Below, piece after piece: positions 3,600 to 61,199 of a stretch of 64,000 nucleotides of DNA; positions within the stretch are counted from its first letter, which is position 1; the number at the start of each line of letters is the position of its first letter. Source of the stretch: Membranipora membranacea (lineage: Eukaryota > Bryozoa > Gymnolaemata > Cheilostomatida > Membraniporidae); contig OU612065.1 of NCBI GenBank assembly GCA_914767715.1, forward strand, positions 34,350,001-34,414,000. The letters run 5' to 3'. The translations under genes and the position numbers were made by a program. Below the pieces are notes generated by a model. The model saw nothing but the letters and a program-made list of their open reading frames with translations, did not search any database and was not told the origin of the DNA.

Positions 3600-3740
3600 T
3601 CTAGGAACGCTGACCAGCCTGGAAGATCTGAGGTTAGATTATAATAAAACACTGACAGAATTACCAGATGAGATTGGAGGATTGAAGTGTCTGCTGACGT
3701 TAAATGTACTAGGGTGTGGCCTCACCAGTCTGCCAAGCAG
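3600..3740 (+). CDS. LRR exon, type B (two leucine-rich repeats)
   Basis: This 141-nt exon, phase 2 in and phase 2 out, encodes 47 residues forming two Shoc2/Roco-like LRRs with LxxLxxLxLxxNxxLxxLP spacing (for example LTELPDEIGGLK and GLTSLPSR). Near-identical exons occur at 44519, 46329 and 49252 in the downstream LRR gene. The acceptor is GTAG at 3596-3599 and the donor is GTAAAT at 3741. It joins exon 7031 in frame (AG plus C gives Ser). Confidence 0.85.
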
Positions 3741-6700
3741 GTAAATATATATAATATATTTATATACATTCATTACATATTGAGTTTGAGTCGCTTTAAG
3801 AACATATTGATGTACACTGAATGAATTTATGTATATATAAATATAGATATATATGAATTCATTGCATGTTGAGTTTAATAACTCTAAGAACTTATTGATG
3901 TGTGCTGAATATCATGCTCTAAGCTGAAAATATTGCATTATGAGACTGGTGTGTAGAATGCAATTACCAACAAGGTGACCCTCGATTGCAATTTTTTAAC
4001 AAATTATCATAAACACTGTAGGACGTAAATATTAACTGCATGATATTGTCATAAACCAAATTTATGGCAGGATATTAAGGATTTGTCTAAAGTGCTGTTG
4101 GTGAGACTTTTGGGTATACCAAGTTGCCAGATCTGCGAATGATAGAATTTACAATACAAGTATGGAATTTATGGAATCCTGCCGATATGCAAATTATGTC
4201 TGGAATCGTCAATATGATATAAGTATTTAGATTAATTCCTTTTTAGGGCAGTTGTGCGCAATATAAACATATAGGAATGGAAAGTGATATACCTACACAA
4301 GAATATTATGAAGATCATCTTTAGGATCATATCCCCTTGTAAAAATCACTGATCCATCTTTGTTGCCAGTATTATAGGAAGTGCTTGCACCGATGTGTTT
4401 GTATACGCTGTTTGTCAGGTTTTTGGCTGAGCCAACCGCAAGGAATATTGATAATAGAAAAGGCAATTGAAAATATAGTAGCCTATTGATCGTTGGTGTG
4501 CGGTCTTTGTATTAAACCTGTAGAAAAGCTGCAAACGATATTCCGCTAATAAATAAAACTTGCAGATACTATAAATGGCAAAAAGATTTTCCCATATAAA
4601 TTGTAAAACTAATAATTCATACATTACTATCAATCTATTTATAAGCAGTCATACTCTCCAAATATTACCAGACACCATAATAGATTGTTATACTGCAAGA
4701 TGGATTACAAAGTCTCCAGGGGATGGTTTCAATAAGAGACTCAAACATCTCTTATAGCTTCAAAATTCAGCAATAAATAGATAGACAGACATAATGTTAC
4801 CCATCATTCTGTAAGTGTTTGCATTGCTGTTTGTCCGGTCTTTTTATATCAGCAAGCTTTGAAAAATAGAAATTAGAGAAGAAATTTGAGAAAATCAAAT
4901 TTTATTTTACATCAAAAATATATTTTCCCCTTTGTTAGAGCTTACCTGTCTCAAAGTTGTAGGCTGGGCATGTTACAGAGACCAGGTTATCTTTTTGATA
5001 AGCCAATGCAGAATCACAACCCATGGCCTGCAGGTCAGATTCACTTTCTCCCATCTCTATCCAGGTTAATTGATCACCCAATAGTGATTCCGTACATGTG
5101 CTCCATTTTGGCACCAAACATCTCATAAAAGTTTGTTTACATTGATAAGGAAGAATTTGATATCAGGTGTGGGACTCTCATAAACAATGCCCTATACTAT
5201 CAAACAATAATTACTGATAAATAAATTTACTTGTTTTTCTCAGTAAATAGTAATTATTTTTTGAAAAACATTATAGCTGCACATTGTGGAGATCATTTTG
5301 ATGGTCTCATTTGCCTTGTAGCTTAAGTATATAAGCATTTAATCAGGACTGAAACTGCAAACAGAATTATAGCTTGAAGTCTATGCACCTGTAGTCTGGA
5401 AGCTGTCACGTAAAATATTTAGAGATGATGGCATCTCAACTACCACGTTCCATCCTATTACCTAAGCTTAGCCAGTTGTATTAAGCAATCAGTCACCAGC
5501 CTGCATATTGCTATTACTGTATTTTTCTGTATAATATATTTTTTGTGTGTCAGGATGTAAAGCAAAGCAGTTAATTGAATACATATGAGAAGTTTGGAAC
5601 AGCTGTTGGATATCACATACTGCTATAAACATTATTTACTTCAAAACATTAGATCATTTTTTGATAAATAATACTGAGTGCAAAGTTACCTCACGTACCA
5701 TTCTAACTAATAGTCTACCTGATCACTTGCCCATTGCTGGGTGCCAAAATTGTGTGGCAAACACAGCTCATCAATAATGGTCACAAAACTACACAGTGAC
5801 TTAATATCCAACAAAATAAATGAGCCAGGAAATTGGAGTGTAATTTATGAAATCGGCAACCCAGGGGAGACCTCCATGAGCGATGCTTTATAGAAGCAAA
5901 TTATCACTATCACATCTCTCAAAATCATCACTCACTTGGCTGTTCAATTAGACAAATTCGCTCACTCAGAATTTATATAGTTCCATCAAAGACTGAGCCA
6001 TTTCTGAGCGAGACCATAGAGTGCGCGATCAGATTGCGATTTTGGCTGTTTTTAATTGAAAGATCCCCCTAAAACCCTTCGCTCTCCTTTAAAATACGAT
6101 GCTAAAGCTAATAGCACAGTTGTTATAATCCAAGCAGATGAACCAGGTCAGAAATTTCACTTTTAAGCCACCCTGTATGACGAAAAAGTTACACAATTTA
6201 ATCAAGAAGCATGATGGGATCCTTGAAAAATACTCATGGTCAATCATGGCTCAATACTAAAAAACTTGATAAAAAGTATTAAAAACCATAAGAGAGTTTC
6301 AAAATTGCAGAGTGTGGATCTTATCAGGAAACATCTGAAACAACATGTTTTGAACCTAACAAATAATGGGGGTTTGTCAACATAGTTTTGAACAGAAAAG
6401 TTTGTCATGATGATACAAATGGGTGTTTGAAATTTGACGACATAAAAATGACAGAAAAACATGAAACAACTGCGAACAGGGCACAATGTTTTGTTGAAAA
6501 ATCATTTGAACTCCATCTGAATTGGTAAACAAGGTATATAAGTCATCTTTGTCTACTTTCTGACAAACTTTATAATGAATCTGCTTCCTACAGTAGGAAG
6601 CAGATTCATTATAAATTTTGGCTATATATTATAAAAATGGCCATATAGAACATTAGTCTCAGAACACATGATTCTTTTGATAGACAATTTCTCACAGGAC

Positions 6701-9700
6701 TGGTCACGAATTCACCAAATTACAGACACTAATTATGCTTTTGAAACATTCATCGAAAGCTACTCTACCATCATTGAAAATTCAAGCAAGAAGACTAGTG
6801 CTAAAACCCAAATGCGACATTTTAAAAAGCCACCGATGACCACAGGATCATTGGAACTTAGAGAAAAGTGTAAAAATTGCACATTAAATCTAAACAAGAA
6901 CAGGAGTTTCCAATACAGAAGCCAGCTAACCAATAAATTGCCTTCCAATTAGTCCTTTTTATGATATTTAGGAATTGTTAACAATTTCAGGTATTTCAAG
7001 GCGTCAGCTATTTTATTTTTCTTTTTACAGCATGTCAAACTTAGAAAATTTAAGGCAACTGAATATCAATAAGAATATAGCTCTACTCTCAATTCCCGCT
7101 GGAGTATGTCGACTCGATACACTCAAGTCAATAGAGTGTGAAGACTGTGCATCTCTGACAAGTCCTCCTTATGCTGTCTGTAGTCAGGGGCTGCCAGCAA
7201 TGAGAAAATACTTTGCCGATCTGGAAGAAAATGTTGAGCAAAACATAAAGTTTGTTCCAATAACTGCTATTGGTCAAACTATGGCTGGTAAAACCAGCCT
7301 TGTTCGGTCAATGAAAGAAAATAAACGGGCTTTGACCACTCGATGTAACAATAGCAAGCTAGATGAGGCCACCAAAGTGATCAAGGTGTGTGAGGTAGAC
7401 GTTGATGAAAAATTCAAACTCGTATTTCATGACTTTGGTGGGCAGGCAATATATCAGTTTGCCTACCAATTGTCACATAGATCACAGTATGTTCCCATGC
7501 TTGTCATAGACATTGCTGAATTTGCCCGACTTGTAGCTGAACACGGAGAAGAAAATGCCTGTGAGACAGTCTGTTTTACATGGCTCTCCCACCTTTATTT
7601 GTCCTGTCCAAAAGCAGGCCAGCCTTTCGTGGTGCTCACCCACTGTGATCTTATTGATAATGAAACCTGCAAAGCGAGAGTGAGTCAGTTGATAGAAGTG
7701 ACTGAACGTCTACGCCTTAGGTTAATAGAGGAGGAGAAAGCCATAGAACCAATGAACAGTCCAATCTTCATGATGGAGAGTTTTCGTGATACATCTCAGC
7801 CTCTTCTCTCAAAACACACACCCCTTCTCATATATAAAGGTTCTGGAACACAGGTAATCCTCGATCTAAAAACCTTCCTTGTGTCTATTGGATTGCCTCT
7901 ACTCACAAATATTCCAGGTAGCTGGTATGTTCTGATGAATTTGTGTGCAAACAGCACACAGCCATATCTTACGCTGGGTGAGCTAGACAAGCTCTTCTCT
8001 AATGACAAAGATCGCTTCATTCTTCAGTACCTTCAGGAAATCGGGCGAGTGATGTGGTACAGAAATCGAGTCAAACTAGCAAACATTGTGTTTCATCGCA
8101 TTGAGCTGCTCACACACCTAGTTGAGTTGCTCTATGATCACTGCAGAGAGGAAGCGTGGAATGAGCGTAGTTTTCTGGCATTTCAGCATGATAACATGGG
8201 AATCAACCAACGGCAATACGATCATATGGTCCAATCATACCTTACTACTGGAGTGATAAGGGACATTTTGCTGGTCAACCTTATCAAAAAAGAGTCAAAA
8301 TTGCAACCTGAGCTGGCAATCGAAGTACTGAAGGTCTTCCATCTGGTTTGTGGCCCAGTCAAGAAGGACAGTGAAAGTCATTATATCATCCCATACTTCA
8401 GTCCTAGAGAACTCACAATCGAGGAATCTGGAATGTACATTCTTTTGAAAGTTGACATATGTTTTAATGGACTGGCTATTCCTAGCTACGTATACCATTT
8501 GCTCGCTGCAAATTATGTTGACCTCCATATTACCTCATACAATACTATTAAGGCTGGCTGCAATGGTGTTTGCGTGAGGGAAAACAATGGCACAATCAAG
8601 TACTTACTTCATAACCATATTGAGAGAACCTTTTCGCTCCTGATCCTGACCCCAACAAAACATATCGCTAAATCCTGGGACAGCCTGCTGCACACCTTGC
8701 AACATTTAAGATCCCAACTGGAACAAGAATGGAAGGGCGCTCACTATGAGATAGTATTCTACTGTTCGCACTGCCTGCTCACTAAGAAGGAGAACCCAAC
8801 CACTCAAGTCAATCCTGCATGGCTCAACAATCAACATCAACCTTATACTGGCGATGAAACTTGTGACTGTATTCAACTTCAATCTTCAACCAAAAGCCCG
8901 ACTACTATTCCATATCCACTGTTCTATCCATGTGAGTACAGTTTCACCAACTTATGTATGATTGATATGGCAATGCAAATTCTGGTCTGCTCTTTCTGCC
9001 TTCCTCTATAGATGCCTTAATTCAAATTGTATTTCTGATGCTTGCTATATTATGACATACTACTTGCTACTATATGCTTGATAGGTAGCACCATCACAAA
9101 AGAAGGGGTTCAGACTTTAGATGAGTACTTGTCAGGCTTCGAAGTGGCTTCTCATGAATCACAAATAGAGGATATTGTGAAGGAAGTAAATTCTGAGAAA
9201 GTTCTTATTTACGATTCAGATTCATATCCAGTCACGGCTGACCCAATGAGTAGTACACAGAAACATAAGGTAGGAAGATGTTGTTGATTTTCACCTTTTA
9301 TATGTAATATTTTCAAGATGAACCCAACTGTTTTCACTCATAACCTGCATACAATAAGATGGTAGTAAATTTACTGGATTTAGTGTGCCTACACACGCAT
9401 TAGTCAGAGTCTTATTTTTTTGCAGAAGGTGTACAAAATGTCTGAGACTCGCGGAAGAGCGCTGATTATATCGAACACCTGCAATAACACAAGGAAAGGT
9501 TCAGAGCATGACTATCGGAATATTAAAGGAATGCTAGAGAAGTTTGGATTTATAACTGTAGGAGGTCACAAAAATTACACTGCAGAGGTAATGGCAATGT
9601 TTTTGCTCCGCCATTGTTTAAGCGCTCAAACGGTGACGGGATGCTGGTAGAGGCATTTCATTATCAAGAGAAAGTGGTTGATAATGAAATGCCTCTACCA

Positions 9701-12033
9701 GCATCCCGCCAACGTTTGAGCGCTTAAACTAGCTCCGCCACAATGAAATAAACGCATTGTCACTATAGGAAAATTATTAATATTTGATCTAAAATTATAA
9801 TAGTTAGAGGTGACTGTAACTCAGTTTGTAAGGTAGTATAGATATTTCATATGAGAGAGCCAGTGATCAATTCCCAGCAAATGCAGATGTATAAGAAGAA
9901 GCGACCAACCAAAGCAGCAGCATCTTGTTATCAACTTGATGCTATTTCTTCTTCAAAATCTTTTTTTTTGCTGAAAATTAGTATCAACTTTTCAGGATAA
10001 GCTGCTAAATCTACTTTAATTCTCAAAATCCGATCAAAATTAATCAAGTTATCAAAGAAAAACCTGGATTTTTGACAGTAAAGCAATAATCGCATCATTG
10101 CTTCTACAACTTACGATGACGTTACGTCGCCCCACAATTAAGTGCCTCACTTCAGCTGTATATGGTGTCCTGTCTAGGTTTGTTATTAAGTCTATGGTGA
10201 GATCCTATTTTTTGGCTTCAGGCTATATACGTATACTCGAATCACTTATTTGTTGTTTGAATAGATGATCGTTACGGCTATCCATTCAGAGACACAGCTA
10301 GTAGACTGGGAGACAGGAGAATCAGTACACAAACATCTCAACTCATTTGTGTTGGTCATCACAAGTCATGGTCATGAAGGGTCTCTGTCTGGTTCCAACG
10401 GTAAACATCTCGTAATCACAGAGCTTATGGATCTGCTCTCATCTGAGAATTTCCCAGCTATGAGAGGGAAGCCAAAGCTTGTCATCATACAGGCTTGTGC
10501 TGGCAGTAAGTTTATAAACTTGATCAATTATGGACAGTCAAATATTGTTCTAAGGGAGTAACTTACTAAAAGTTCAACGATTATTTTTTAATTTCCATGT
10601 CCTTGTCATTTACGTCTGCATTCTCAGGCAGCGATTTACCGATGGTATGACATACACTCAGTAGAAAATTTGGGCATAAAAAATACTCTAAGTATTTGCT
10701 CTTATACTCATAAGACAAATTAGTTCTCGGTGAAAGTCAAGATTGTCTCTCTACTTGTAGGTAGGAAAGAAACACTTCCAGGAGACTTGCCCCCTTCTCA
10801 AGCACCACCCAATCAGAATCAGCTAGAAGTAGATCAGCCTCAACACAGCAATGGAGCCACAAATGAATCCCCTTCTACAGATCCTCATGATAACCCTATA
10901 TCAGACTTCATCATTATGCAGTCCAGCTTTGATTGTAAGTTGTGAGAGACAATATTCCCTACTTTCTAATTGTGATGGTAGATGTGTTTGTATTGAAATG
11001 AACATAATTGTACTTTATATCACTGACAACCAGTTTGAAGGTTGTCTTGGTTTGTTGATGATTGAGTTATTTTAAATTATGAACAGTAGGACACCCAACT
11101 CAATCTGACGGGCACAGCTGAGCTGAGGCATATCCATCTTCTTTGTTTGAGTGATGTCATCGATCAGGTATTTTAACAGGATATCCCAGCCTTTGGCATG
11201 CACAACTCATTTGAACACTTACAGAGTATGATAACTAGCCACTTGGTCATACTAGGCAATAGTAGGAAATGCAAAAACAATTTTTTGTCTTCCTTTGCAG
11301 CATTCAAATCACATCGAAGTCCTAAAGTTGGCTCGCTGTTCATCCGCTGCCTGGTATCTACATTCTATAGATATGCTCACAGAGATCATCTCGAAGAACT
11401 GGCAGCAATTGTAAGTGATAGATCTTACTGCAGTTTTAGTCAATGTATGATGCTTGTAAACAATTTTTACACAATCAATCGAGTTTTTTGCAGTACAGTT
11501 ATTAATTGTCTCAACAAATTGTTGGTTAATGCTTGAGAGTTTAGTAAGACTTGATGTAAGCATGTGTATTTTTACAGCATAATCTCAAGCTGAATCAATC
11601 AAGCACAAATACAACACATGTTTTTTTAGGGTGGGGGGTAAATGGACTGAATAATACATAGCATGTTAGTCACAGCTAAGTAAATGATTCCACCCGCACC
11701 TTTGTGACGGCCATTGGCTTATTTTACAGGTCAGAGAGACTGTAGTAAAGGCTGGAGCACAGAGAACAGAATATCTGCAAAGAATCGGAAAGCAGCGGTA
11801 TCCCTCTATGCCTCAGAGTAGATGTACATTTCCAGGTAATAAGTTCTATCTGCAGCCTGGAATCAATATGAGAACAGAGGACCACCCAGAATCACTCAGA
11901 AATCCTGTGTTACGCAAACCTACAGCTACAAGGATTCACACAGAACCTGGTATGTATGATGTTATGTATGATATAGAAGAAATGAAAATCATAAAAACTT
12001 TTTAGTCGTTTCAATGCCGTTGCGCCACTTACG

Positions 12034-12105
<72 letters not shown>

Positions 12106-12702
12106 ACAGTTTCCTGTCTAGGTTGAGGAAGTTTTATTTTTACCTGATTCTGACACTGCCTCAGTTTTTTCTCCTACACACCCGCTGATATGTCTGTAAC
12201 TTGTGAATTAACCAAAATATAAGGTACACATATATTTTTTGAGTAATGAAAAAGCATTGTGCAATAATACATATCATGCAATATTTATTAGTGCTAGAGA
12301 TGCGTTAGACAAAGAGTGGCCCAATGGTTAAGGGTGCGAACTTGCAAACTTTGAAGACCGAGTTTAATTTTCAGCCTGGCAAATGATAATGTTGAAAATA
12401 AGATGCAATTAACATGTTATGCTTTCTACCTGATGCTGCCACAAATTATTTTCTTGCCCACCCACTGATATGTTGTCATGAGGGAACAACTTGAAAATTC
12501 ACCAAAAATAACATGAGTGAAATATGATTGGCCTATGGTATGGAGAAGACATTGTGATATCTTACCATAATCTACAATATTAATTGGATTTTTCTCTTCT
12601 GCAGACCTGATACATACATATAGAACCGGAGAGACAGGGCCGATGAAGACTTATTATCAGTGGTCAGTAAAGAGAAACTCAGTAAAGAGCAACTCACCAT
12701 GA
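3600..12702 (+). CDS. LRR-Roc-COR-caspase fusion protein (Roco-caspase), 5' partial
   Basis: Nine exons join in phase: 3600-3740, 7031-8931, 9085-9269, 9426-9587, 10265-10505, 10761-10934, 11301-11410, 11730-11949 and 12605-12702, with TGA at 12700-12702. They encode 1076 residues; the N terminus lies upstream of the window. Domain order is LRRs (about 1-105), Roc GTPase (about 115-300), COR (about 310-650), a linker (682-745), caspase p20 (about 750-880), a Pro/Gln/Asp-rich linker, caspase p10 (about 920-1015) and a 60-residue tail. Roc proteins are GTPase switches that dimerise through COR, and caspases cut after Asp once brought together. I infer a receptor or scaffold whose LRRs control a built-in protease. 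Every exon has GT and AG borders and there is no internal stop. The long first intron holds repeats. A kinase or death domain, usual in animal Roco proteins, is not seen. The fusion rests on splice phase and not on a transcript. Confidence 0.85.
5393..5714. repeat. 330-bp interspersed repeat, copy 2
   Basis: This is the same sequence as 1287-1616, in the same orientation, with a handful of substitutions. It is outside the large duplication, so it is a dispersed element in its own right. Confidence 0.75.
5863..6069 (-). mobile_element. MITE of the GGGGGGTCTTTCAATTA family, partial
   Basis: In reverse orientation it matches the complete copy at 16063-16306, including the internal GATGGAACTATATA core and the GAGCGATT motifs. 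The outer ends have decayed. Confidence 0.7.
6569..6615. repeat. Perfect 47-bp palindrome
   Basis: Two 23-bp arms around a single central base are exact complements. The arm begins TTTATAATGAATCTGCTTCC. It is intronic. No family is recognised. Confidence 0.9.
6668..6948 (+). pseudogene. Non-LTR retrotransposon remnant (endonuclease-RT spacer)
   Basis: The frame contains a stretch like the region between endonuclease and reverse transcriptase in CR1/Jockey-type elements: a Phe/Tyr-rich helix, then a Lys-Pro-Pro-Met-Thr-Thr box (usually KPWIT) and a basic, Asn-rich helix ending NKL. No endonuclease or RT core is attached, so it is a fragment. A related remnant is at 40309-40860. Confidence 0.5.
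7031..8931 (+). CDS. Roc-COR exon of the Roco-caspase gene
   Basis: One 1901-nt exon (phase 2 in, phase 1 out) encodes the end of the LRR domain, Roc and COR. The LRR cap ends in a SPPYAVCSQGLPAMRKYF segment; the Pro-Pro, Cys-x-Gln-Gly and Tyr-Phe pattern is what joins LRRs to Roc in other Roco proteins. Roc shows G1 GQTMAGKTS at 7272-7298, G3 HDFGGQ (DFGGQ at 7431-7445) and G4 THCD at 7638-7649. The DxGGQ and THxD forms are the Roc versions of the Ras motifs. The following 350 residues fit COR in length and position. The acceptor is CTTTTTACAG at 7030 and the donor is GTGAGT at 8932. An upstream Met at 6975 is intronic and I reject it as a start. Confidence 0.9.
9085..9269 (+). CDS. Linker exon between COR and caspase
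   Basis: This exon (phase 1 in, phase 0 out) gives 62 residues that are acidic and polar, with no recognised domain. It contains the Asp-rich stretch YDSDSYPVTADP just before the caspase. I see no CARD, death domain or death-effector domain, so recruitment would have to come from Roc-COR or the LRRs. Asp residues here could be processing sites, which is inference. Confidence 0.75.
9426..10505 (+). CDS. Caspase p20 (large subunit) exons
   Basis: Exons 9426-9587 and 10265-10505 encode the large subunit. The first holds the opening strand RGRALIISN and an Arg in NTRKGSEHD that aligns with the S1-pocket Arg of caspase-3 (TSRSGTDVD region). The second has the catalytic His in TSHGHEG (codon 10367-10369) and the catalytic Cys in IIQACAG (codon 10496-10498). 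The usual box is QACRG; here Arg is Ala, but that Arg is not the catalytic or S1 residue. GKPKLVIIQAC is very close to animal caspases and unlike the DSC or DMC boxes of meta- and paracaspases. The intron between the two carries a small MITE. Confidence 0.9.
9605..9740. mobile_element. Foldback MITE with 9-bp target duplication
   Basis: Inverted arms 9616-9666 and 9678-9729 enclose an 11-bp loop. The 9-bp sequence GCTCCGCCA occurs directly on both sides, at 9605-9613 and 9732-9740. A 9-bp duplication is typical of Mutator-like elements. It lies in an intron of the caspase part and does not touch splice sites. Confidence 0.8.
10761..11949 (+). CDS. Caspase interdomain linker and p10 (small subunit) exons
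   Basis: Exon 10761-10934 encodes a Pro/Gln/Ser/Asp-rich linker of about 58 residues that includes LEVD (10823-10834), a plausible cleavage site, and ends in SDFIIMQSSFD. This ending matches the ADFLYAYSTAPG stretch that precedes the p10 S1 loop. Exon 11301-11410 encodes SHRSPKVGSLFIRCL, matching the SWRNSKDGSWFIQSL loop with its S1 Arg kept (residue 940) and Trp replaced by His. Exon 11730-11949 continues the p10 helix and gives the final strand pattern (PQSRCTFPGNKFYL), then a tail with no recognised domain. The phases are 1-1, 1-0 and 0-1. Confidence 0.85.
12035..12104 (+). repeat. Uninterrupted (TGC)23 / CTG triplet repeat
   Basis: Seventy bases of pure TGC/CTG lie in the last intron of the Roco-caspase gene (11950-12604). 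It is followed by TTACAG, which could act as a cryptic acceptor. The purity suggests recent expansion. Confidence 0.95.
12305..12400 (+). mobile_element. Decayed tRNA-derived SINE head
   Basis: An A-box-like AGTGGCCCAATGG is followed about 40 bp later by a weak B-box GAGTTTAATTTTC. It is intronic and too decayed to be a tRNA gene. Confidence 0.35.
12605..12702 (+). CDS. Terminal exon of the Roco-caspase gene
   Basis: The exon (phase 1 in) encodes the last 31 residues, a basic, Tyr-containing tail with no recognised domain, and ends with TGA at 12700-12702. The acceptor is TTCTGCAG after a T-rich tract. It joins in frame to GAACCTG at 11949. Confidence 0.75.
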
Positions 12703-22648: not shown

Positions 22649-24087
22649 ATGGCACGTAAGAACAAAGACCCACAAACAAAAGAGGTTACGACCTTTGGCT
22701 CAGCAACTGTAGCGTATGTCAATTTTGGTCTTCTTATCGGCGCCATCGGATTGGGGATTTATTTTACTGACAAAGAGAATCGTCAACAGAGTGCTTTGGA
22801 TCAGGTGAGTTGTATTATGAATCCTAAGTGCTATATTATGAAAACATTTATGCAAAAAAAACTTTAGTATTTTATACTGTTCAACTTGTCAGGCATATAT
22901 TGTTTTTTGAGGAATTCCACTCAGCAAACAGGCTCCAAAGATATTGAATATATGTTATGGTAGGTCACAGGCTGAATTGGGGTAATATACATTTAGAAGT
23001 TATTACAATCCAATGATCATGCATCTACCAAAATTGGAGGAAACAAAAGCCTAAAATTGATTTTAAGTTTTTCCTTATTACAGCATTACGTGAGAACTTA
23101 TGGTCACCTAACACATCTAGATAAATTAAGAGACGAGTTTAACACCTCCGAACTTTCAGCAGCAGGATATGAGCCTCTCTGGTCTGATGATGACAACTTT
23201 ATCAATGTATACAAGAGACAAGGTGAGAATTACCAAACTCTCACTTCATGACTTTTGACATCTGGGGAGCTCAGACTAGCTATAACCATCCTGTAGCTTG
23301 CAAAATTTCCGACCAAACAGTCTGTCAAAAATGGAACCCAGTAAACACTGTATCACCATAGATATAGTTGTCCATGAAGGCCAACATATATATGAAAACA
23401 AAGATTGAAATGGCAAGGAGATCTACAAAGCTCTAACTGAGCCTTGAGATCATCATCAGAAAAAATAATCCTAATTCAAGTCAGTTGATTTGCTCCGCAC
23501 ACTAGTAGTTTGAAAATCTGCGGCTTCAATGTTTACACCAAGGGCCACCAAGAGGTAACTTCCATAATTTTTCACCCCCTTTATTATTTATTGAATGTCA
23601 CAACAATTTCTTAAAGGAGCTGCCGGAGCTAGAGGTGCTCAAGGTACCCAGGGAGTGCCGGGGAGAAATGGTATAAATGGTACTCCAGGGAGCAACGGAC
23701 AACCAGGCACCCCAGGTTTGAATGGTGCACCAGGAACGATCGGAGCAGATGGTAGTACAGGCTCTCCCGGTGTGCAAGGTGTTGCTGGACCTAATGGAAC
23801 TCCAGGAGCGCCAGGAGCTCAAGGCACAATTGGAGTGTTTGGAACCAATGGAAGCCCAGGCTTGCCTGGTACGCCAGGTGTCAATGGAATTCAAGGACCG
23901 CCAGGAGAACCAGGGACTGCAGGAGTAGCCGGAGTGCAAGGGCCCGCAGGTGTGTCCGGACCATGGACTACCTGGAGCACCAGGTGTGGATGGAGAGGAT
24001 GGAGAGGATGGGACACCAGGTCCAAGAGGGCCAACTGGTGAGCCGGGCCGAGGTCCAATAGAGGCACTATTTGCCGAAATCGGTTGA
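22649..24087 (+). CDS. Type II membrane collagen-like protein, with one frameshift
   Basis: Exons 22649-22804, 23084-23222 and 23617-24087 join in phase (0-0, 0-1, 1). The 52-residue first exon has a polar N terminus and one hydrophobic segment (VAYVNFGLLIGAIGLGIYF) with no signal-peptide cleavage pattern, so the protein should be anchored with its C terminus outside. The second exon gives a 46-residue stalk. The third gives about 38 uninterrupted Gly-X-Y triplets, rich in Asn, Thr and Pro. At 23964 the frame breaks: one T sits where three bases are needed. A +2 frame then continues with about ten more triplets and ends at TGA 24085-24087. Read without the shift it would end at 24041 with non-collagen residues. 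The break could be a real mutation or an assembly error. Neighbours give no functional hint. Confidence 0.7.
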
Positions 24088-33965: not shown

Positions 33966-36900
33966 ATGGAGCCTGCCGAGCCTCAATGTTCTGGTACTGT
34001 GGTGAGAGTAAGGTCTGAGACAACTGATGTCACAGAGAGCCAGGATAATGGTAAGTAGAAACTAAAACTTTCATGACTTTTCCACCCTACTTTTTTCAGC
34101 CGTATCTGTACTACAAAGCATCGAGTTATCCCTATTCAGCTGCAAAAAAAACTGTTGTTTTAATATAGCTGTGCTGGCTGCGTGCTAGCTTCTCTCCTGT
34201 AAAATTAGTTACTCAATTAGAAGAAGAGAACTCTCATAAAACATTGCCAATCTTTATCACAACTATTCTCTACATGAAGACATTGTTGCACAGTGTGGCG
34301 ATAGTGGAGTAGAATGCGCCATGGGGTGTGAAAACACAACTCTAGTAGTGAATAGCGAGAGTGCTAATTAGCACCATCAACCAATTCTTTTTGTGGATGG
34401 TGAGATGGCGCAATCGGTTAGCGCGCTTGCTATTCACTACCAGGCGATTGGTGCCGAATGAGTTGTGGGTCGAGTCACAGTAAGGGAGCTTTCAAGGTTG
34501 GTTGTTCCAGCCCCAGCACCCTCGGGTGTATACCTCTTCTATCACAGCTATTCTCTACATGTAGAACTTGTAGAGCCGTTAGCTACAGTCCCAGCTGATC
34601 TGACATCACAGGCACAAAGCATTACAGATGCTGACAAGGATGATATCCAGTCTGAGCTTAGTGATACCAACAACATTCAGCAAGCTGAGTCAACGTGTGA
34701 GTTTAGATTAGATGTAAATGTTGTTATATCATGTTGACCCTGATTGTGGCTTTGATTTAGAGTGATTATGGAGTCTTACTGTATAGCCAGTTTTCAAATT
34801 TGTTACTTTATATCACCAAATAGTTGAGCTTGTTTTAGTATATCGAGTTTGGTATAGAGATGACACTGAGCCAGAGATCGATGAGTTTCCTGGTCATAAA
34901 AACTACAGAGATGTCACACTGTCAGAATTACTAACAGATACACAAAATCTGACTGTCACACATATGTCTGTCAAAGGAGATATACCACCACTAGATCAGA
35001 TAGCTCCTAAACTAAAACATCTCATGTTACAGGGAATGAGCACAAATCAGATAAAGAAGTGAGTGAGATTTTTACAATGATTATATACATATACTTCTAT
35101 TGTCAATCAACATTCATCTTCTCAAATGTTTTTCATGCAGTGCCAGAACAAATAACTTAAAATAAGGAAAAGCGGAGAGACAAAGAAAAAAAATACACTA
35201 GTGATGAAATTAACAAGATTTAAAGTGTTTGATAGATGTTAAAAAGAGTAAAATGAAAATTTGTACTTGGCTTTACTTTGATGGTTATAGCAATCAATGT
35301 TATATGATATAGTATGGTGTTATGTGTTATATATGTCATATGATGTTATGGCCATGTATAATACCTCTGTATACTACCTGAACTGGGTATACCATCACTA
35401 CATCATAAGCCATGGTTTTAGTGTCATTTCATCCACCATTATTCTAGTTACACACCCTACTGACCTTATGTTTTCAAGTGGTTTAATAATTTGCGGTTAA
35501 TGACAGAAACAGAATACTTAAAGGGATAATATACTTCTGATCTCTGTTTGGCAGCCAATGGAGCACAGAAAAATGTATGTACATACATAAACTCCTTATT
35601 TGTAATTCAAAACCCCTTGTTCTGCTCAAATGTGCATTCTAAATTGTAGTTGTGCATCTCCAACAAGAAATAAGACAACTAACAGAATTGCTTGTGATCT
35701 GAAAAAAAGCTGATTTTGTGAGCAGTTGTGTGCTCCTACCTCTTGGTTGGTATTTCAATTGTACAGATACTCAGAGTGCGCATGTGCAATAATGATGACC
35801 TTTGGACTTTAGCTTGTTATTTTCTAACAGCCCAGCTTAACCGGATATGATAATAAAAGTGTAAAGCTGGGCTGTTAGAAAATAACAAGCTAAAGTCCAA
35901 AGGTCATCATTATTGCACATGCGCACTCTGAGTATCTGTACAATTGAAACACCAACCAAGAGATAGGAGCACACAACTGCTCACAAAATCAGCTTTTTTC
36001 AGATCACAAGCAATTCTGTTAGTTGTCTTATTTCTTGTTGGAGATGCACAACTCCAATTTAGAATGCACATTTGAGCAGAACAAGGGGTTTTGAATTTAA
36101 AAAAATAAGGAGTTTATGTATGTACATACATTTTTCTGTGCTCCATTGGCTACCAACAGAGATCAGAAGTGTATTATCCCTTTAATATGTTCGTGTATAT
36201 TCTACCATGACACCACAAAAAGATGTGTGCATCAGTAGTATGACTTTAGCTTGGCATGCAGAGGGTCCCAGGTTCTACTCCCGGTTGGGGAAGGGATTTT
36301 TGTAGTTGAGCTAAAAGCTTAAAATTTTCTCATCTTTATCAAACTTACCAGAAATTAGCGGGCCTTAAATCCGTGAATAATTAAGACTAGTGAAAAAGGT
36401 TGGAGTTGTGCCCTCCTCGAATTAGGAGCCCGCGAATTATTTTTTTGGTAAAGACTATTTTATATTATATTACAGCATGTGTACAATAGTTAACCTCACA
36501 GAGCTGAATGTATGTGGTAATGAGGACCTGCAGATATTACCAGAGTGGATCTGTAAGTTGGAGAACTTGACAAAGTTAGATGTGTCATACTGCGGTCTGG
36601 AGGAACTACCAGAGAGGTAAATAGCGCTGATCAATTAGCATGAATATTTGTTTGCGATGATTTATGTGTACTAAAATGCCAAGCATTGGACAGCTAATGA
36701 CCTTTGAGACAGTTCTCAAAGTTTTGAACAAGATAAAATGCAATATGAAGGTAACGTAAATAGTTGTGAAGTCATGACAATTTCAGATGATGTGAGGTGA
36801 ATTTCTGGTAACAAAATGAAACTATGAAGATTTACTGATCTTATATATTACAGCATGTGTACAATGGTTAACCTCACGGAGCTGAATGTGAGACATAACA

Positions 36901-39900
36901 GGAGCCTGAAGAGATTACCAGACTGGATCTGTAAGATGAAGAGCTTGACAAAGTTAGATGTGCCATACTGCGGTCTGGAGGAACTACCAGAGAGGTAAAT
37001 AGCGCTGATCAATTAGCATGAATATTTGTTTGCGATGATTTATATGCACTAAAGTGCCAAGCATTGGACAGCTAATGACCTCTGTGACAGTTCTCAAAGT
37101 TTTGAACAGGATAAAATGCAATATAAAAGTAACGTAAATAGTTGTGAAGTCATGACAATTTCAGATGATGTGAGGTGAATTTCTGGTAACAAAATGAACC
37201 TATGAAGATTTACTGATCTTATATATTACAGCATGTGTACATTGGTTAACCTCACGGAGCTGAATGTGAGAGGTAACACGAGCCTGAAGAGATTACCAGA
37301 CTGGATCTGTAAGATGAAGAGCTTGACAAAGTTAGCTGTGTCACACTGTAGTCTACAGGAACTGCCAGAGAGGTAAATCAGACGTGTTGATCCATGCCCA
37401 TTTCTCTCTGTTTTTGCTGTTATTTTCGCCTTGTCAGTTAGATGTGTCAATTTATTTAATATAATATCAAATTGAGGTTGATTTGTAAAATCCGAATGCA
37501 AGCTCTATAAAATTGATACTCAAGGCATGACAATTTCAGATGATGTGAGGTGAATTTCTGGGAACAAAATGAAACTATGAAGATTTACTGATCTTATATA
37601 TTACAGCATGTGTACAATGGTTAACCTCACAGAGCTGAATGTATGTGGTAATGAGGACCTGAAGAGATTACCAGACTGGATCTGTAAGATGAAGAGCTTG
37701 ACAAAGTTAGATGTGTCACACTGTAGTCTACAGGAACTGCCAGAGAGGTAAATCAGACGTGTTGATCCATGCCCATTTCTCTCTGTTTTTGCTGTTATTT
37801 TCGCCTTGTCAGTTAGATGTGTCAATTTATTTAATATAATATCAAATTGAGGTTGATTTGTAAAATCCGAATGCAAGCTCTATAGAATTGATCCTCAAGG
37901 CATGACAATTTCAGATGATGTGAGGTGAATTTCTGGGAACAAAATGAACCTATGAAGATTTACTGACCTTATATATTACAGCATGTGTACAATGTTTAAT
38001 CTCACGGAGCTAGATGTGAGAGGTAACAGGAGCCTGAAGAGATTACCAGACGGGATCTGTAAGATGAAGAGCTTGACAAAGTTAGATGTGTCATACTGTA
38101 GTCTACAGGAACTGCCAGAGAGGTAAATCAGACGTGTTGATCCATGCCCATTTCTCTCTGTTTTTGCTGTTATTTTCGCCTTGTCAGTTAGATGTGTCAA
38201 TTTATTTAATATAATATCAAATTGAGGTTGATTTGTAAAATCCGAATGCAAGCTCTATAAAATTGATCCTCAAGGCATGACAATTTCAGATGATGTGAGG
38301 TGAATTTCTGGGAACAAAATGAAACTATGAAGATTTACTGATCTTATATATTACAGCGTGTGTACAATGGTTAACCTCACGGAGCTGAATGTGAGTTGTC
38401 AATGGAGCCTGAAGAGATTACCAGACTGGATCTGTAAGTTGGAGAATTTGACAAAGTTAGATGTGTCAGACTGTAGGCTACAGGAACTGCCAGAGAGGTA
38501 AATCAGACGTGTTGATCCATGCCCATTTCTCTCTGTTTTTGCTGTTATTTTCGCCTTGTCAGTTAGATGTGTCAATTTATTTAATATAATATCAAATTGA
38601 GGTTGATTTGTAAAATCCGAATGCAAGCTCTATAGAATTGATCCTCAAGGCATGACAATTTCAGATGATGTGAGGTGAATTTCTGGGAACAAAATGAACC
38701 TATGAAGATTTACTGACCTTATATATTACAGCATGTGTACAATGTTTAATCTCACGGAGCTAGATGTGAGAGGTAACAGGAGCCTGAAGAGATTACCAGA
38801 CGGGATCTGTAAGATGAAGAGCTTGACAAAGTTAGATGTGTCATACTGTAGTCTACAGGAACTGCCAGAGAGGTAAATCAGACGTGTTGATCCATGCCCA
38901 TTTCTCTCTGTTTTTGCTGTTATTTTCGCCTTGTCAGTTAGATGTGTCAATTTATTTAATATAATATCAAATTGAGGTTGATTTGTAAAATCCGAATGCA
39001 AGCTCTATAAAATTGATCCTCAAGGCATGACAATTTCAGATGATGTGAGGTGAATTTCTGGGAACAAAATGAAACTATGAAGATTTACTGATCTTATATA
39101 TTACAGCATGTGTACAATGGTTAACCTCACTGAGCTGAATGTGAGAGGTAACTGGAGCCTGAAGAGATTACCAGACTGGATCTGTGAGATGAAGAGCTTG
39201 ACAAATAAAGATGTGTCAGAGTGCGAACTAGAGGAACTACCAGAGAGGTAAATAGCGCTGATCAATTAGCATGAATATTTGTTTGCGATGATTTATGCGC
39301 ACTAAAATGCGAAGCATTGGACAGCTAATGACCTTTGAGACAGTTCTCAAAGTTTTGAACAGGATAAATTGCAATAAATAAAGGTAACGTAAATAGGTGT
39401 GAAGTCATGACAATTTCAGATGATGTGAGGTGAATTTCTGGTAACAAAATGAACCTATGAAGATTTACTGATCTTATATATTACAGCATGTGTACAATGG
39501 TTAACCTCACGGAGCTGAATGTGAGAAGTAACTTGAGCCTGAAGAGATTACCAGACGGGATCTGTGAGATGAAGAGCTTGACAAAGTTAGATGTGTCACA
39601 CTGTAGTCTACAGGAACTGCCAGAGAGGTAAATCAGACGTGTTGATCCATGCCCATTTCTCTCTGTTTTTGCTGTTATTTTCGCCTTGTCAGTTAGATGT
39701 GTCAATTTATTTAATATAATATCAAATTGAGGTTGATTTGTAAAATCCGAATGCAAGCTCTATAAAATTGATCCTCAGCAGGCTAACCATAAATACTATC
39801 CTCTAGGGTTATGGTATTCTGCATGATAATAATAATAATAAAGTTTTTGGCCAAACTTGATAGCTGGTAGTTTTTGAGTTGTCGGCACCTAGTTCTTAAG

Positions 39901-42900: not shown

Positions 42901-45900
42901 GAGCAAATAATACTTTTCTTTACAAGGTGGTGTCCACTCCCAAAGTCTTTGTAGGAGAATATTTTATCCATATATAATACATTTTGAAGTCTCTAGAATT
43001 GATAACAAGTGTTTTTTATGCTGTCAGAGTACAATTCAGATGTGATGAAAAGAGACCTCATGTCTGGCACATAATTATGCGGCGCTTCATTGCGCACAAA
43101 AAAGCACTCAGGAGCAAAATTGAAGGAATGTTATGATAAATAATTCAACCTCACCTTCTTTATGAACCGTTATTCAAAAATCAAGAAGAAAACTTTTTCC
43201 ATCTCTATGCTACAGCTGCCTGAGAGTTCCCTGTCCAGCAAAATATGTGATTTTCGTGCAGTCATGACGCGACGTCAAGAGACGTTACGTCCTCGATTCT
43301 CATAGAAATATACTCCTACCTAGATGGTCTTCCATATGTGCCAAAATCACCTAAATCGGACAACTTTTTTTTAGGCGTTACTATACCTTAAAAGAAAGTA
43401 AAATATGAAAAACTGTAGGAATACAATACATTTGACTACTCATTCTTTTCCCGAGTTCAGTTTTTAGTTATATTACAATGGCTAGGCTCGATGTGATTAC
43501 CATGCTGTCAAAGTTATTAGGATGTAAATTTGAGCATAGCACATTGGTAAAAGTAACTTGCCTTTTTTGTCCCTAATATTACCCCCCCCCCCCCACACAA
43601 GAAAACTGCTGCATGTGTAGTAACAAGTCTCTATAATGAAGGCTGGACCTGAACCGCAGGCCACCTTCAAATCTGAGGTGCTCATACTCTAAACCTTTCA
43701 CGCAGGGTTATAGGCTTAAACTTGTTTTTTTTTAACAAAATTTTCTACAAAATAAGCTGTCAAGAAAAAACTAAAAAAGGGAAAAAGATCAATCAAGATG
43801 GCGAAAAAAATAATCAGAACAGCAACATTTGAACAATTTATAATGGAGTATTGGAACATAAATTAAATGGTATATTGTTAAAAGTAGATGCTATCATATT
43901 AACTAAGAAGTTGTTTGAAGCTAGGTGTAGCTTGAACATGTCTCTCATATTAAAAATGCGCGAAAAATTAGAATTTTCTAACATAAATGGTGGACATATC
44001 TTGTTTATCAATTGATGTCCAGTTGTGAATATGCTGAGCACTGGTAGATGTAGGTGTAATGACCCTGATAATTCATTAGTTGGTACCAGGTGATTAGGAA
44101 TGATTTGTATATTACATATCAACCTGAAGGCTCTCTTCTGGAGTAAAAATATGTCCTTTAGTATGTAGTTTGGTGATAGGTTGTAGTAAATATGGATACC
44201 ACTTATGATGTGGCAAAAAATTAAATGATGGTAAAGTATAAAAGATGTTTTGTTGTCAAAAAACGCCTACAAAGTTGTTATAGTGTAATTGCTTTTGCTT
44301 CCTTTTAACGGACAAAGGAAACATGGTCATGCCATGTTAGCCTGTCATTCATGATGAAACCTAACAGTTTTCTTTCAGGCTTTATCAACAGACTTACTGG
44401 TTCAGACTGACATTATTAGGGGAATATCAACTGATTCTCTGACTATGTCCATAATAAATACTGTAAAAAAATACATTAACGAATCTTATCACATCACAAT
44501 CTGTGTTCTCTGTTATAGTCTAGGAACATTGACCAGCCTGGAAGAGCTGATGTTAGATGGTAATGAATCACTGACAGAGTTACCAGATGAGATCGGGGGA
44601 TTGAAGAGTCTACGGACATTAAATGTATCAAAGTGTGGCCTCACCAGTCTGCCAAGCAGGTAAATATATATATATTCATATACATTCATTACATATTGAG
44701 TTTGAGTCGCATCAAGAACATATTGATGTGCACTGAATGAATTTATATATATATATAATATATATAAATTCATTGCATGTTGAGTTTAGGAACTCTAAGA
44801 ACTTATTGATGTGTGCTGAATCTCAAGCTCTAAGCTGAAAATATTGCATTATGAGACTGGTGTGTAGAATGCAATTACCAACAAGGTGAGTCTCGATTGC
44901 AATTTTTTGTCAAATTTTTATAAACGCTGTAGGACGTAAATATTAACTGCATGATATTGTCATAAACCAATTTTATGGCAGGATGTTAAGGATTTGTCTA
45001 AAGTAACTTGCCTTTTTTGTCCCTAATATTACCCCCCACACAAGAAAACTGCTGCATGTGTAGTAACAAGTCTCTATAATGAATGCTGGACCTGAACCGC
45101 AGGCCACCTTCAAATCTGAGGTGCTCATACTCTAAACCTTTGACACGGGGTTATAGGCTTAAACTTGTTTTTTTAAATGTTTTACAAAATTAGCTGTCGA
45201 GAAAAAACTAAAAAAGGGAAAAAATCAATCAAGATGGCGAAAGAAATAATCAGAACATCAACATTTGAATAATTTATAATTGAGTATTGGAACCTAAATT
45301 AAATGGTATATTGTTAAATGTAGATGCTATCATATTAACTAAGAAGTTATTTGAAGTTAGGTGTAGCTTGAACATGTCTCTCATATTAAAAATGCGCGAA
45401 AAATTAGAATTTTCTAACATAAATGGTGGACATGTCTTGTTTACCAATTGATGTCCAGTTATGCTAGTAAAATATATCTTGAGCACTGGTAGATGTAGAA
45501 GGTGTAATGACCCTGATAATTCATTAGTTGGTACCAGGTGATAAGGAATGATTTGTATATTACATATCAACCTGAAGGCTCTCTTCTGGAGTAAAAATAT
45601 GTCCTTTAGTATATAGTTTGGTGATAGGTTGTATAGTAAGTATGGATACTACTTATGATGTGGCAAAAAATTAAATGATGGTAAAGTATATAAGATGTTT
45701 TGTTTTCAAAAAACGCCTACAAAGTTGTTATAGTGTAATTGCCTTTGCTTCCTTTTAACGGACTAAGGAAACATGGTCATGCCATGTTAGCCTGTCATTC
45801 ATGATGAAACCTAACCGTTTTCATTCAGGCTTTATCAACAGACTAACTGGTTCAGACTGACATTAGTAGGGGAATGTCAACTGATTTGCTGACTATTTTT

Positions 45901-48900
45901 ATAATAAATACTGTAAAAAAATACATTTACCTAATCTTATCATAACACTATATGTGTTCTCTGTTATAGTCTAGGATCTCTGACCAGCCTAAAGGTGCTG
46001 TTGTTAGCATAGCTGTTGGTGATAGGTGGTTTTGGTATGACAACACCTGAGAGTTAGAATCTAAAATACAAATATAGAATTCATTGTAAAGTCATAGATA
46101 CCGAAGCACAACCCAAGTATTTACATTAAATCTGAGGTGCTCATATTCTCAAAAGATTTCATGCAGGGTTGGGCTGAAGCTAGTTCAGGCTTGATCAACA
46201 GTCTAACTGGTTCAGACTGACGTTATCAGGGGATTATCAACTGATTTACTGACTATCCCTATAAAAAATACTACATATAAATACATTACCGAATCTTATC
46301 ACATCACAATCTGTGTTCTCTGTTATAGTCTAGGAACACTGACCAGCCTGGAAAAGCTGAGGTTAGATGATAATAAAACACTGACAGAGTTACCAGATGA
46401 GATTGGGGGATTGAAGAGTCTACAGACATTAAATGTATCAGAGTGTGGCCTCACCAGTCTGCCAAGCAGGTAAATATATATATTTATATACATTCATTAC
46501 ATATTGAGTTTGAGTCGCTTTAAGAACATATTGATGTGCACTGAAAGAACTTATGTATATATAAATAAATAAATATATAAATATATGTATATATATATAT
46601 AAATTCATTGCATGTTGAGATTAAGAACTCTAAGAAGTTATTGATGTGTGCTGAATCTCAAGCTCTAAGCTGAAAATATTGCATTATGAGACTGGTGTGT
46701 AGAATACAATTACCAACAAGGTGACCCTCGATTGCAATTTTTTGTCAAATTTTCATAGCACTGTAGGACGTAAATATTAACTGCATGATATTGTCATAAA
46801 CCAAATTTATGGCAGGATGTTAAGGATTTGTCTTAAGTGCTGTTGGTCAGAGTTTTGGGTATACCAATTCGCCAGATCTGCGAGAGATAGAATTTACAAT
46901 ACAAGTATGGAATTTATGGAATCCTACTGATATGCAAATTATGCCTGGAATCGTCAATATGATATAAGTATTAGATTTAATCCCCTTTTAGGGCAGTTGT
47001 GTGCAATATAAACATATAGGAGTGGAAAGTGATATACCTACTCAAGAATATTATGAAGATCATCTTTAGGGTCATATCCCCTTGTAAAAATCACTGACCC
47101 AGCTTTGTTGCCAGTATTATAGGAGTTGCTTGCACCGATGTGTTTGTATACGCTGTTTGTCAGGTTTTTGGATAAGCCAACCGCAAGGAATATTGATAAT
47201 AGAAAAGGCAATTGAAAATATTGTAGCCTATTGACCGTTGGTGTGCGGTCTTTGTATTAAACCTGTGGCCAAACATCTCTGGGCATCACTGCCAAGAAAA
47301 TTTATGTTGTATGGTAGGAATAAATGAGCTATTTTTTTAGTTAGCTGCAAACGATATTCCGCTAATATATAAAACTTGCAGATACTATAAATGGCAAAGA
47401 GATTTGCCCATATGAATTGTAAAACTAATAATTCATACATTACTATCAATCTATTTATAAGCAGTCATACTCTCCAAATATTACCAGACACCATGATAGG
47501 TTGATAGACTGCAAGATGGATTACAAAGTCTCCAGGGGATGGTTTCAATAAGAGACTCAAAACATCTCTTATAGCTTCAAAATTCAGCTATTAATAGATA
47601 GACAGACATAATGTTTCCCATCATTCAGTAAGTGTTTGCATTGCTGTTTGTCCGGTTTTTTTATATCAGCAAACTTTGAAAAATAGAAATTAGAGAAGAA
47701 ATTTGAGAAAATCAAATTTATTTTACATCCAAAATATATAATCCCCTTTGTTAGAACTTACCTGTCTCAAAGTTGTAGGCTGGGCATGTTACAGAGACCA
47801 GGTTATCTTTTTGTTAAGCTAATGCAGAATCACAACCCATGGCCTGCAGGTCAGATTCACTTTCTCCCATCTCTATCCAGGTTAATAGATCACCCAATAG
47901 TGATTCCGTACATGTGCTCCATTTTGGCGCCAAACATCTCATAAAAGTTTGTTAACATTGATAAGGAAGAATTTGATGTCAGGAGTGGGACTCTCATAAA
48001 CAATGCCCTATACTATCAAACAATAATTACTGATAAATAAATTTACTAATTTTTCTCAGTAAATAGTAATTATTTTTTGAAAATCATTATACCTGCGCAT
48101 TCCTCAGCTATATTTGACTCTGCGGATGGATTTTTGAAAGCTGATTATCTATATTTCAAAGAAAGTAAAATATGAAAAACTGTAGGAATACAATACATTT
48201 GACTACTCATTCTTTTCCCGAGTTCAGTTTTTAGTTATATTACAATGGCTAGGCTCGATGTGATTACCATGCTGTCAAAGTTATTAGGATGTAAATTTGA
48301 GCATAGCAAATTGGTAAAAGTAACTTGCATTTTTTGTCCCTAATATTACCTCCCACACAAGAAAACTGCTGCATGTGTAGTATCAAGTCTCTATACTGAA
48401 TGCTGGACCTGAACCTTCAAATCTGAGGTGCTCATACTCTAAACCTTTCACACTGGGTTATAGGCTTAAACTTGTTTTTTTTTAAATGTTTTACAAAATT
48501 AGCTGTCAAGAAAAAACTAAAAAAGGGAAAAAAATCAATCAAGATGGCGAAAAAAAAAATCAGAACATCAACATTTGAATAATTTATAACTGAGTATTGA
48601 ACATAAATTAAATGGTATATTGTTAAAAGTAGATGCTATCATATTAACTAAGAAGATATTTGAAGTTATGTGTAGCTTGAAAATGTCTCTGATATTAAAA
48701 ATGCGCGAAAATTTAGAATTTTCTAACATAAATGGTGGACATGTCTTGTTTATCAATTGATGTCCAGTTATGCTAATAAAATATATGTTGAGCACTGATA
48801 GATGTAGAAGGTGTAATGACCCTGATAATTCCTTAGTTGGTACCAGGTGATTAGGAATGATTTGTATATTACGTATCAACCTGAATGCTTTTTTCTGGAG

Positions 48901-57785: not shown

Positions 57786-58231
57786 ATGTCGGGAAATCCT
57801 ATCTTGTCAGGATAGCCAGCATGGGCTTGGCATAATTATTCCCGATCTCCAACTTGTTCTGATGAACGCGTAAGGCTTAACGGCAACCTGCCAGTCGAAA
57901 AGTCGGTTTAAAACAAGGCTACCAGCCAGGCACAAAAAATGTGTTGTTTATCAACTATACTATGATTTTATTGTGTACTAACTATCTAACTAAAACTAAC
58001 AGAGTTACAAAGATTTAATGTATAAATCAGTAAAGATAATCAGTGCGTTTAGTCTCGTCCGCTAGCAAACATGAAGTGTCAAGTTGTAAGAGGGAAGAGT
58101 GTAAGCTTGCTAAAAATAGTTACTGTCGTAGCATTAATAAAGGATTATTATAACAGACAAAACATGTGTATGAATAGAATGTGTCTTCAGTGCTTAATAT
58201 ATATAACAGTCAAAGACTGAAATTCCCCACA
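57786..58231 (-). repeat. 3' LTR
   Basis: On the minus strand it begins TGTGGGGAATTTC and ends GACA. It is 446 bp and matches 61737-62207. The short purine-rich tract just inside it (58232-58243, GTGGGAGAG on the minus strand) fits a polypurine tract. Confidence 0.9.
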
Positions 58232-61153: not shown

Positions 61154-61199
61154 ATTTTTGTGCTAAATTATACTCTGAGTTTCATACAGCTAGTTCTCT

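Follow-up and report, generated by a model that had tools for sequence, protein, structure and literature searches.

A 64,000-nt stretch of chromosome 1 of the bryozoan Membranipora membranacea (chr1:34350001–34414000, contig OU612065.1; henceforth the window) contains a gene in which leucine-rich repeats (LRRs), a Roc (Ras of complex proteins) GTPase domain, and a COR (C-terminal of Roc) domain are followed by a caspase, and the genomic sequence makes it very probable that Roc-COR and caspase lie on one protein chain. The gene is likely a member of a large bryozoan receptor family in which LRRs, Roc-COR, a short linker, and a caspase-9/CED-3-like caspase are combined such that the LRRs would trigger caspase activation on the same chain.

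Gene Model

We rebuilt nine exons from the raw sequence between positions 3600 and 12702 of the window (+ strand), which yield 1076 residues and end with a TGA stop at 12702. Every intron is of the GT..AG type and the phases are compatible at all junctions, so that the nine exons with matching phases proposed in an earlier interpretation made without database searches (the sequence-only reading) were recovered on re-derivation. Position 3600, where that model begins, is not the gene start, because exon 1 is preceded by an acceptor; the frame is open at the 5′ end, and a scan of chr1:34290001–34424000 revealed more LRR exons upstream of the window. All Roc and caspase motifs quoted in that reading were located by hand on the window sequence, and the order LRR-Roc-COR-caspase that it had proposed is confirmed by Pfam, profile comparison, predicted fold, and paralogs.

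Exon 1 of this partial model (3600..3740, 141 bp, phase 2-2, placed by its GT-AG boundaries and phase) is an LRR exon of type A with two LRRs and is the final LRR-only exon ahead of Roc-COR. Exon 2 (7031..8931, 633 full codons) encodes the last LRRs, the Roc GTPase, and COR-A/COR-B, an assignment based on Pfam, hhalign, AlphaFold/Foldseek, and 70 scored genomic matches. Within it, the Roc domain (7260..7649, from motifs and Pfam) contains the boxes G1 GQTMAGKTS (7272–7298), G3 DFGGQ (7431–7445), and G4 THCD (7638–7649), and the COR region with COR-A and COR-B occupies approximately 7656..8870 according to Pfam in relatives, hhalign, and Foldseek. Exon 3 (9085..9269), identified by paralog comparison, encodes the linker between COR and caspase (STITKEGVQTLDEYLS...). 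The caspase p20 subunit starts in exon 4 (9426..9587; KVYKMSETRGRALIISN...), which includes an S1-pocket Arg at 9492–9494, and its catalytic part is encoded by exon 5 (10265..10505) with the His at 10367–10369 (TSHGHEG) and the Cys at 10496–10498 (IIQACAG). Exon 6 (10761..10934) covers the inter-subunit linker and the p10 start, exon 7 (11301..11410) covers p10 with a second S1-pocket Arg at 11315–11317, exon 8 (11730..11949) covers the end of p10 and the beginning of a C-terminal tail, and exon 9 (12605..12702) completes the tail up to the TGA stop. All of these exons are on the + strand. The first ATTAAA/AATAAA 3′ of the stop is at 12867.

The tail of about 90 residues after p10 (11730–12702; QxRCTFxxxKFYLxPG..., YxWSVKRN) recurs in paralogs and has no Pfam match in the model. 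Two repeats were seen in the introns: by eye, an inverted repeat resembling a palindrome of the miniature inverted-repeat transposable element type (9615–9735), about 30 bases past the exon-4 donor, and a perfect (TGC)23 microsatellite (12035–12104) in the last intron.

Identity of the Roc-COR Domains

Two sequence features of Roco proteins are present in the model: a Roc domain with G1, G3, and G4 boxes and a COR domain directly after it. We compared nine models, that is, the window gene and eight paralogs (L093, L099, L100–L104, and L108), by spliced exon-by-exon alignment and found the G1, G3, and G4 boxes in all nine, with G3 variants in L104 (DVGGH) and L093 (DFGGD). Searched with Pfam hidden Markov models, the 1076-residue model has a clear caspase match, described below, and an LRR match (LRR_14, E = 2.5e-11). 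The calls in between count against the assignment in the window gene, as Roc scores 25.6 bits on the full model, just under the cut-off of 27, and COR-A reaches 13.6 bits with a cut-off of 35.3. Among six exon-2 proteins scanned separately, Roc is above the cut-off of 27 in all five paralogs and just misses it in the window (26.6 bits), COR-A is above the cut-off in L093 only, and L104 has a COR-B match (E = 2.7e-4) below the Pfam cut-off. The weak calls in the window gene are therefore backed by its relatives, because the paralogs pass for Roc and L093 passes for COR-A.

Profile comparison extends this through the COR domain. A profile built from an alignment of window exon 2 and seven paralog exons matched four cyanobacterial Roco proteins in hhalign with a probability of 99.6% and E = 4.9e-24 over 475 columns, reaching through COR, with about 19% identity over the aligned columns. 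When the Roc-COR part alone was compared with solved structures, the matches were bacterial and archaeal Roco chains and were weak (E 0.001–0.004). An AlphaFold model of exon 2 has a mean pLDDT (predicted local distance difference test) of 74.4 and a pTM (predicted template modeling score) of 0.72, and its best PDB matches in Foldseek are 6hlu (LRR-Roc-COR protein of Chlorobium tepidum, E 1.2e-16), LRRK1 (8e05, 1.6e-16), and 3dpu (4.7e-15). The predicted fold is thus Roco-like. To be set against it are the moderate confidence of the model and global TM-scores (template modeling scores) to the best matches of only 0.44–0.54, which leave the arrangement of the exon-2 domains not fixed. The possibility that COR is a chance match was rejected on the basis of profile comparison, predicted fold, and paralogs. 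We also rejected a relation to type III effectors suggested by LRR matches to ncbifam models, because these reflect LRR similarity only and are far below the cut-off.

The Caspase Half

The Pfam Peptidase_C14 model (PF00656) matches residues 751–1002 of the window model with E = 1.3e-30, and the closest solved structures to this half are caspase-9 and CED-3. The catalytic residues are intact: the His-Cys dyad and the Arg/Gln/Arg of the S1 pocket are all present (SHG, QACAG, TRKGS, and SHRSPK), the S1-forming residues being those of other caspases. Across the nine models, the catalytic His, the Cys, and the p20 S1 Arg are found in eight and the p10 S1 Arg in all nine. The inter-subunit linker in exon 6 contains LEVD and PHD, whose Asp residues could be cleavage sites.

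Pfam scans of the 1076 residues detected no CARD or DED at E values up to 1, in a model that is open 5′ of its LRR exons; no NACHT or NB-ARC, the NTPase being Roc; no protein kinase domain; and no CHAT domain, a C14 caspase being there instead. Close relatives were not found in the viral contigs that we searched, and a search of prokaryotic sequences with a 130-residue piece of p20 returned 56 pattern stretches, none of which was confirmed as a relative.

A Family of Roc-COR-Caspase Loci

To place the gene in its genome (18 contigs, 339,339,785 bases), we searched with the exon-2 protein and with the caspase, and we scored 70 of 269 candidates in the former search and 140 of 515 in the latter. 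Because only part of the candidates was scored, the family counts are lower bounds, and the results are biased toward the window gene's own subtype. Two let-7-like loci with short hairpins score below the cut-off of their family (40.4 and 39.8 bits against 53.5) but by eye have an intact mature sequence, which fits a bilaterian. At least 70 Roc-COR exon matches, that of the window included, are clustered on chromosomes 1, 3, 5, and 10; the chromosome-1 copies at 33.6–34.4 Mb are 89–100% identical, whereas copies on chromosomes 3, 5, and 10 are divergent. None of the 70 scored exons contains a stop codon, though a few matches are shortened (e.g., 96–634 and 1–609 of 634). The caspase search gave at least 145 exon matches genome-wide. 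As a separate observation, 86 of these 145 are not behind a scored Roc-COR exon and several of them are clustered, for example, on C9 near 2 Mb.

A caspase match lies on the same strand 719–3000 bp downstream of 58 of the 70 Roc-COR exons, and within 10 kb no Roc-COR exon has a caspase match upstream or on the opposite strand (0/70 each). Random placing predicts about 0.07 such associations, a value so far from 58 that it argues against chance. Of the 12 exons without a caspase match, the sole one inspected (C3:25620379) is followed by a linker-like exon and then by a divergent caspase of a second type (type 2; Pfam C14, 4.8e-11). L093 on chromosome 4 and L104 on chromosome 10 (13.39 Mb), which are outside the set of 70, have caspase exons too, so that at least 61 Roc-COR loci are followed by a caspase.

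One Chain, Two Genes, or a Decoy

All eight paralogs keep Roc-COR, p20, and p10 in this order, even the most divergent ones (exon-2 identity to the window is 27% for L093 and 32% for L104). In seven of the nine models (the window, L108, L099, and L100–L103), the COR exon ends with a CAT|GT donor and is followed by an exon that starts in phase 1. The linker is a single 185-bp exon in the window and is split into 68 + 102–105 bp in L100–L103 and into 78 + 96 bp in L099. By eye, a motif resembling xEGVxxLDxYLS follows COR in L108, L099, and L100–L103, with a looser match in L104 and a weak one in L093, and linker exon 3 is similar in six of the eight paralogs. The pairwise identities of the Roc-COR half and of the caspase half are correlated (r = 0.96 when L103 is excluded and 0.76 when it is included). 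The conserved order, the linker exon, and the junction phase shared by seven of nine models together give strong genomic support to the single chain proposed in the sequence-only reading.

Several observations weigh against this interpretation. The L093 and L104 models contain implausible small introns that are artefactual, so their splice phases are unreliable and were left out of the phase comparison. Tandem copies make up many of the 70 loci, so the 58 associations are not independent events, and a duplicated gene pair would yield the same count. No caspase match was seen downstream of 11 of the 70 exons (C3 at 25.71–26.02, 18.96, and 19.35 Mb; C1 at 31.63, 31.77, and 32.04 Mb; and C10 at 23.69 Mb). 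In linker exon 3, the comparison of the window with L108 shows 10.5 nonsynonymous and 1.5 synonymous differences, a ratio of 1.9 from few changes, and purifying selection on this exon is thus not shown in that pair; the values versus L099 and L100 are 0.30 and 0.25, with synonymous divergence (dS) near saturation. The same side of the balance holds the poly-A-like hexamers that lie between COR and caspase in three of five paralogs (L101, L102, and L099). In favor of one chain, neither AATAAA nor ATTAAA is found in this interval in the window; L108 and L100 also lack them there. Lastly, L103 has lost catalytic residues, as described below.

Some of these points would suit two adjacent genes, the first for LRR-Roc-COR and the second for a caspase, that were duplicated as a pair: tandem duplication copies a gene pair as well as it copies a fusion, and the hexamers lie between the two parts. 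In addition, the frame after COR in the window could end at 9011, and there is one Met in the last residues of exon 3 (DPMSST) and another close to where the caspase begins (KVYKMSETRG). We nevertheless consider two genes very unlikely. Linker exon 3 begins at an acceptor and, from the upstream stop to its final residues, is without an in-frame Met. In L099 the start of the caspase is without a Met (...ISLTRGRAL), although its linker contains one. The VYxM segment near the window caspase start resembles caspase-8 sequence and so looks like caspase body rather than a start. Two genes also have to contend with the junction phase shared by seven of nine models, the linker similarity in six of eight paralogs, and the fact that all 58 caspase matches are on the same strand at 719–3000 bp downstream. 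It is also improbable that the caspase part, on one transcript, is mainly a cFLIP-like regulator or decoy or a scaffold. This idea draws on L103, in which STG replaces SHG, QSVEG replaces QACAG, and the p20 S1 Arg is also lost, making its type-1 caspase a predicted pseudo-caspase, and in which an extra type-2 caspase domain (Pfam C14, 3.4e-20) lies between the linker and the pseudo-caspase (L103:5400–6320 and 6484–8920; chromosome 10, about 22.189–22.193 Mb). Furthermore, the window and L108 are less alike in the caspase half (76% identity) than in Roc-COR (93%). On the other hand, the catalytic His and Cys are kept in eight of nine models, and the ratio of nonsynonymous to synonymous substitution rates (dN/dS, by the Nei–Gojobori method) between the window and L108 is 0.23 in p20 and 0.16 in p10; it is 0.37 in LRR+Roc, 0.28 in COR, 0.61 in the inter-subunit linker, and 0.34 in the tail. 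These ratios below 1 in the domains, together with the absence of stops from all 70 scored Roc-COR exons, though a few matches are shortened, also make a decaying or non-expressed repeat family extremely unlikely, although turnover is apparent from retroelement-like frames nearby and from L100 and L103, and two truncated upstream LRR exons contain stops. L100 and L103 differ by a dS of 0.12 in the Roc-COR half and 1.48 in the rest, indicating that the two halves have different histories, as after module exchange or conversion; relative to L100, the Roc-COR half of L103 is recent and its caspase half old.

LRR Exons and the Neighborhood of the Gene

The scan of chr1:34290001–34424000 identified 35 matches to LRR exons, which fall into types A and B. 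Two are truncated type-A copies with stops. All but one of the remaining 33 are 141 bp long with matching acceptors and donors, and the exception (L115:2265) has one extra codon. The stop-free exons comprise 16 of type A (exon 1 and 15 others) and 17 of type B, with overall ratios of nonsynonymous to synonymous proportions of differences (pN/pS) of 0.77 and 0.76, respectively. These ratios show no overall positive selection on the LRR exons; the changes are concentrated at certain codons.

Downstream of the window gene and on the same strand, a 375-bp tandem array of nine type-B LRR exons (36476..39627) and three type-A LRR exons starting at 44519, 46329, and 49252 (44519..49392) are assigned to a neighboring paralog. 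Its Roc-COR-caspase part is beyond the window, with the exon-2 equivalent at chr1:34427566, and judging from order and strand it probably uses these 12 LRR exons and three more beyond the window. Further frames were noted by eye: on the − strand, a frame resembling the reverse transcriptase of long interspersed nuclear elements and retroelement gag/protease-like frames (55817–57835 and 58753–61162), and on the + strand, a collagen-like Gly-X-Y open frame (23595–24041).

Proposed Mechanism

From a single mature transcript, which we infer along with the location in the cell, ligand sensing, dimerization, proteolysis, and a cell-death outcome, a receptor might work as follows. Family members are probably cytosolic. 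The most likely activation route, to which we give about even odds, runs from LRR sensing through Roc-COR to caspase proximity. In such a route, LRRs from duplicated exons would detect a ligand or lost self, and their binding would change the nucleotide state and the oligomeric state of Roc-COR. Roc-COR dimers or oligomers would then set the attached caspase zymogens side by side, much as in the ligand-controlled dimerization suggested in the sequence-only reading, and the zymogens would dimerize and become active by proximity as initiator caspases do. The dimerized caspases could cut their own inter-subunit linker after Asp, and the outcome would be cell death or inflammation-like signaling without a CARD/DED adaptor.

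Bacterial Roco dimers are favored in the nucleotide-free state, so dimerization need not follow GTP binding, and this preference speaks for a switch other than a GTP-bound dimer. We considered that GTP may drive release from autoinhibition or that the LRRs may scaffold oligomers, or else that the family serves mainly development or colony allorecognition instead of pathogen defense. Bryozoans are colonial, and the accessible part of one source names them among the animals with allo-incompatibility (PMC8195603). Overall we find these options rather unlikely; no evidence distinguishes them from the proximity route.

Because the family is large, clustered, and recombining and its host is colonial, it is a strong candidate for a receptor repertoire. 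We tentatively suggest, without favoring it over more limited roles, that a large and fast-recombining LRR-Roco-caspase repertoire (at least 61 loci), with exon-shuffled LRRs, two swappable caspase types, and cFLIP-like pseudo-caspases, might be a main intracellular system by which bryozoans detect self/non-self and pathogens. It would then correspond, in animals, to the LRR-Roco-protease immunity of bacteria, and CARD/DED adaptors would be bypassed.

Comparison with Known Systems

In animals, the accessible text of two studies describes Roco proteins with a kinase, death, CARD, or TIR domain and lists no caspase among them (PMC4104024; PMC9334734). LRRK1/2, DAPK1, MFHAS1, and the Roco proteins of Trichoplax and Aplysia share the Roc-COR core and an association with death or immune domains with the bryozoan protein, and MFHAS1 also has an LRR N-terminus, as LRRK does. 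Trichoplax has Roco proteins with CARD/TIR, and Aplysia has a TIR-Roco protein, as far as the accessible parts of these sources report (PMC4104024; PMC9334734); Trichoplax has a CARD adaptor domain instead of the caspase protease of the bryozoan chain. No report of the order LRR-Roc-COR-caspase in animals was found in the literature covered, most subscription papers being outside that coverage. The main caution on novelty comes from PMC11378527, according to which up to forty Roco domain combinations occur in animals; a caspase could be among them. The claim in the sequence-only reading that no described animal protein has this order is accordingly not contradicted by the accessible literature, whereas the order itself, with a caspase, has been published for bacterial proteins (PMC8195603).

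The brown-algal LRR-ROCO genes, as described in the accessible text of PMC11378527, also combine LRR-Roc-COR with duplicated and shuffled phase-2 LRR exons and are proposed immune receptors. Their LRR exons are 72 bp with one LRR, whereas the bryozoan ones are 141 bp with two; three members have another peptidase domain (IPR009003), and the word caspase is absent from the main text of that source (PMC11378527).

The bryozoan caspase shares the p20-p10 arrangement, the catalytic dyad, and the S1 residues with the initiator caspases caspase-9, caspase-8, and CED-3. These carry a CARD or DED, in the place of which the 1076-residue part has LRR-Roc-COR. An LRR sensor, an NTP switch, and caspase activation would make the protein similar to the NLR inflammasome and the apoptosome. 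The bryozoan chain has a Roco GTPase and not the NACHT/NB-ARC of those systems, and because the caspase is on the same predicted chain, no adaptor would be needed, unlike in those assemblies. If the gene is transcribed as predicted, a single molecule would combine the inflammasome functions of sensor, switch, and death protease, and it becomes testable whether the state of Roc-COR directly controls proximity activation of a caspase.

The closest parallel in design is bacterial. According to the accessible part of PMC8195603, bacterial proteins with LRRs, an AP-GTPase (Roc), and COR have at least 24 kinds of C-terminal domain, including caspase, trypsin, and TIR; with a bacterial LRR-Roc-COR-caspase already in print, the design is not new. 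We collected 82 bacterial frames at 80 loci, ranked them by tail length, and scanned nine of the 11 longest-tailed (L050 and L051 were left out, and contig ends truncate some of the nine). After COR-B, seven of the nine tails contain a caspase-like CHAT domain (weak in L070, 33 bits) and two contain a TIR domain. The bacterial proteins (including L021, L023, L025, L057, and L070) have their effector where the bryozoan protein has its caspase, C-terminal to COR; those scanned differ in having CHAT and not a C14 caspase, in the absence of introns, and in an identity of only about 19% to the bryozoan profile. If transcribed as predicted, the bryozoan family also makes it testable whether animals kept the bacterial LRR-Roco-protease design or re-invented it.

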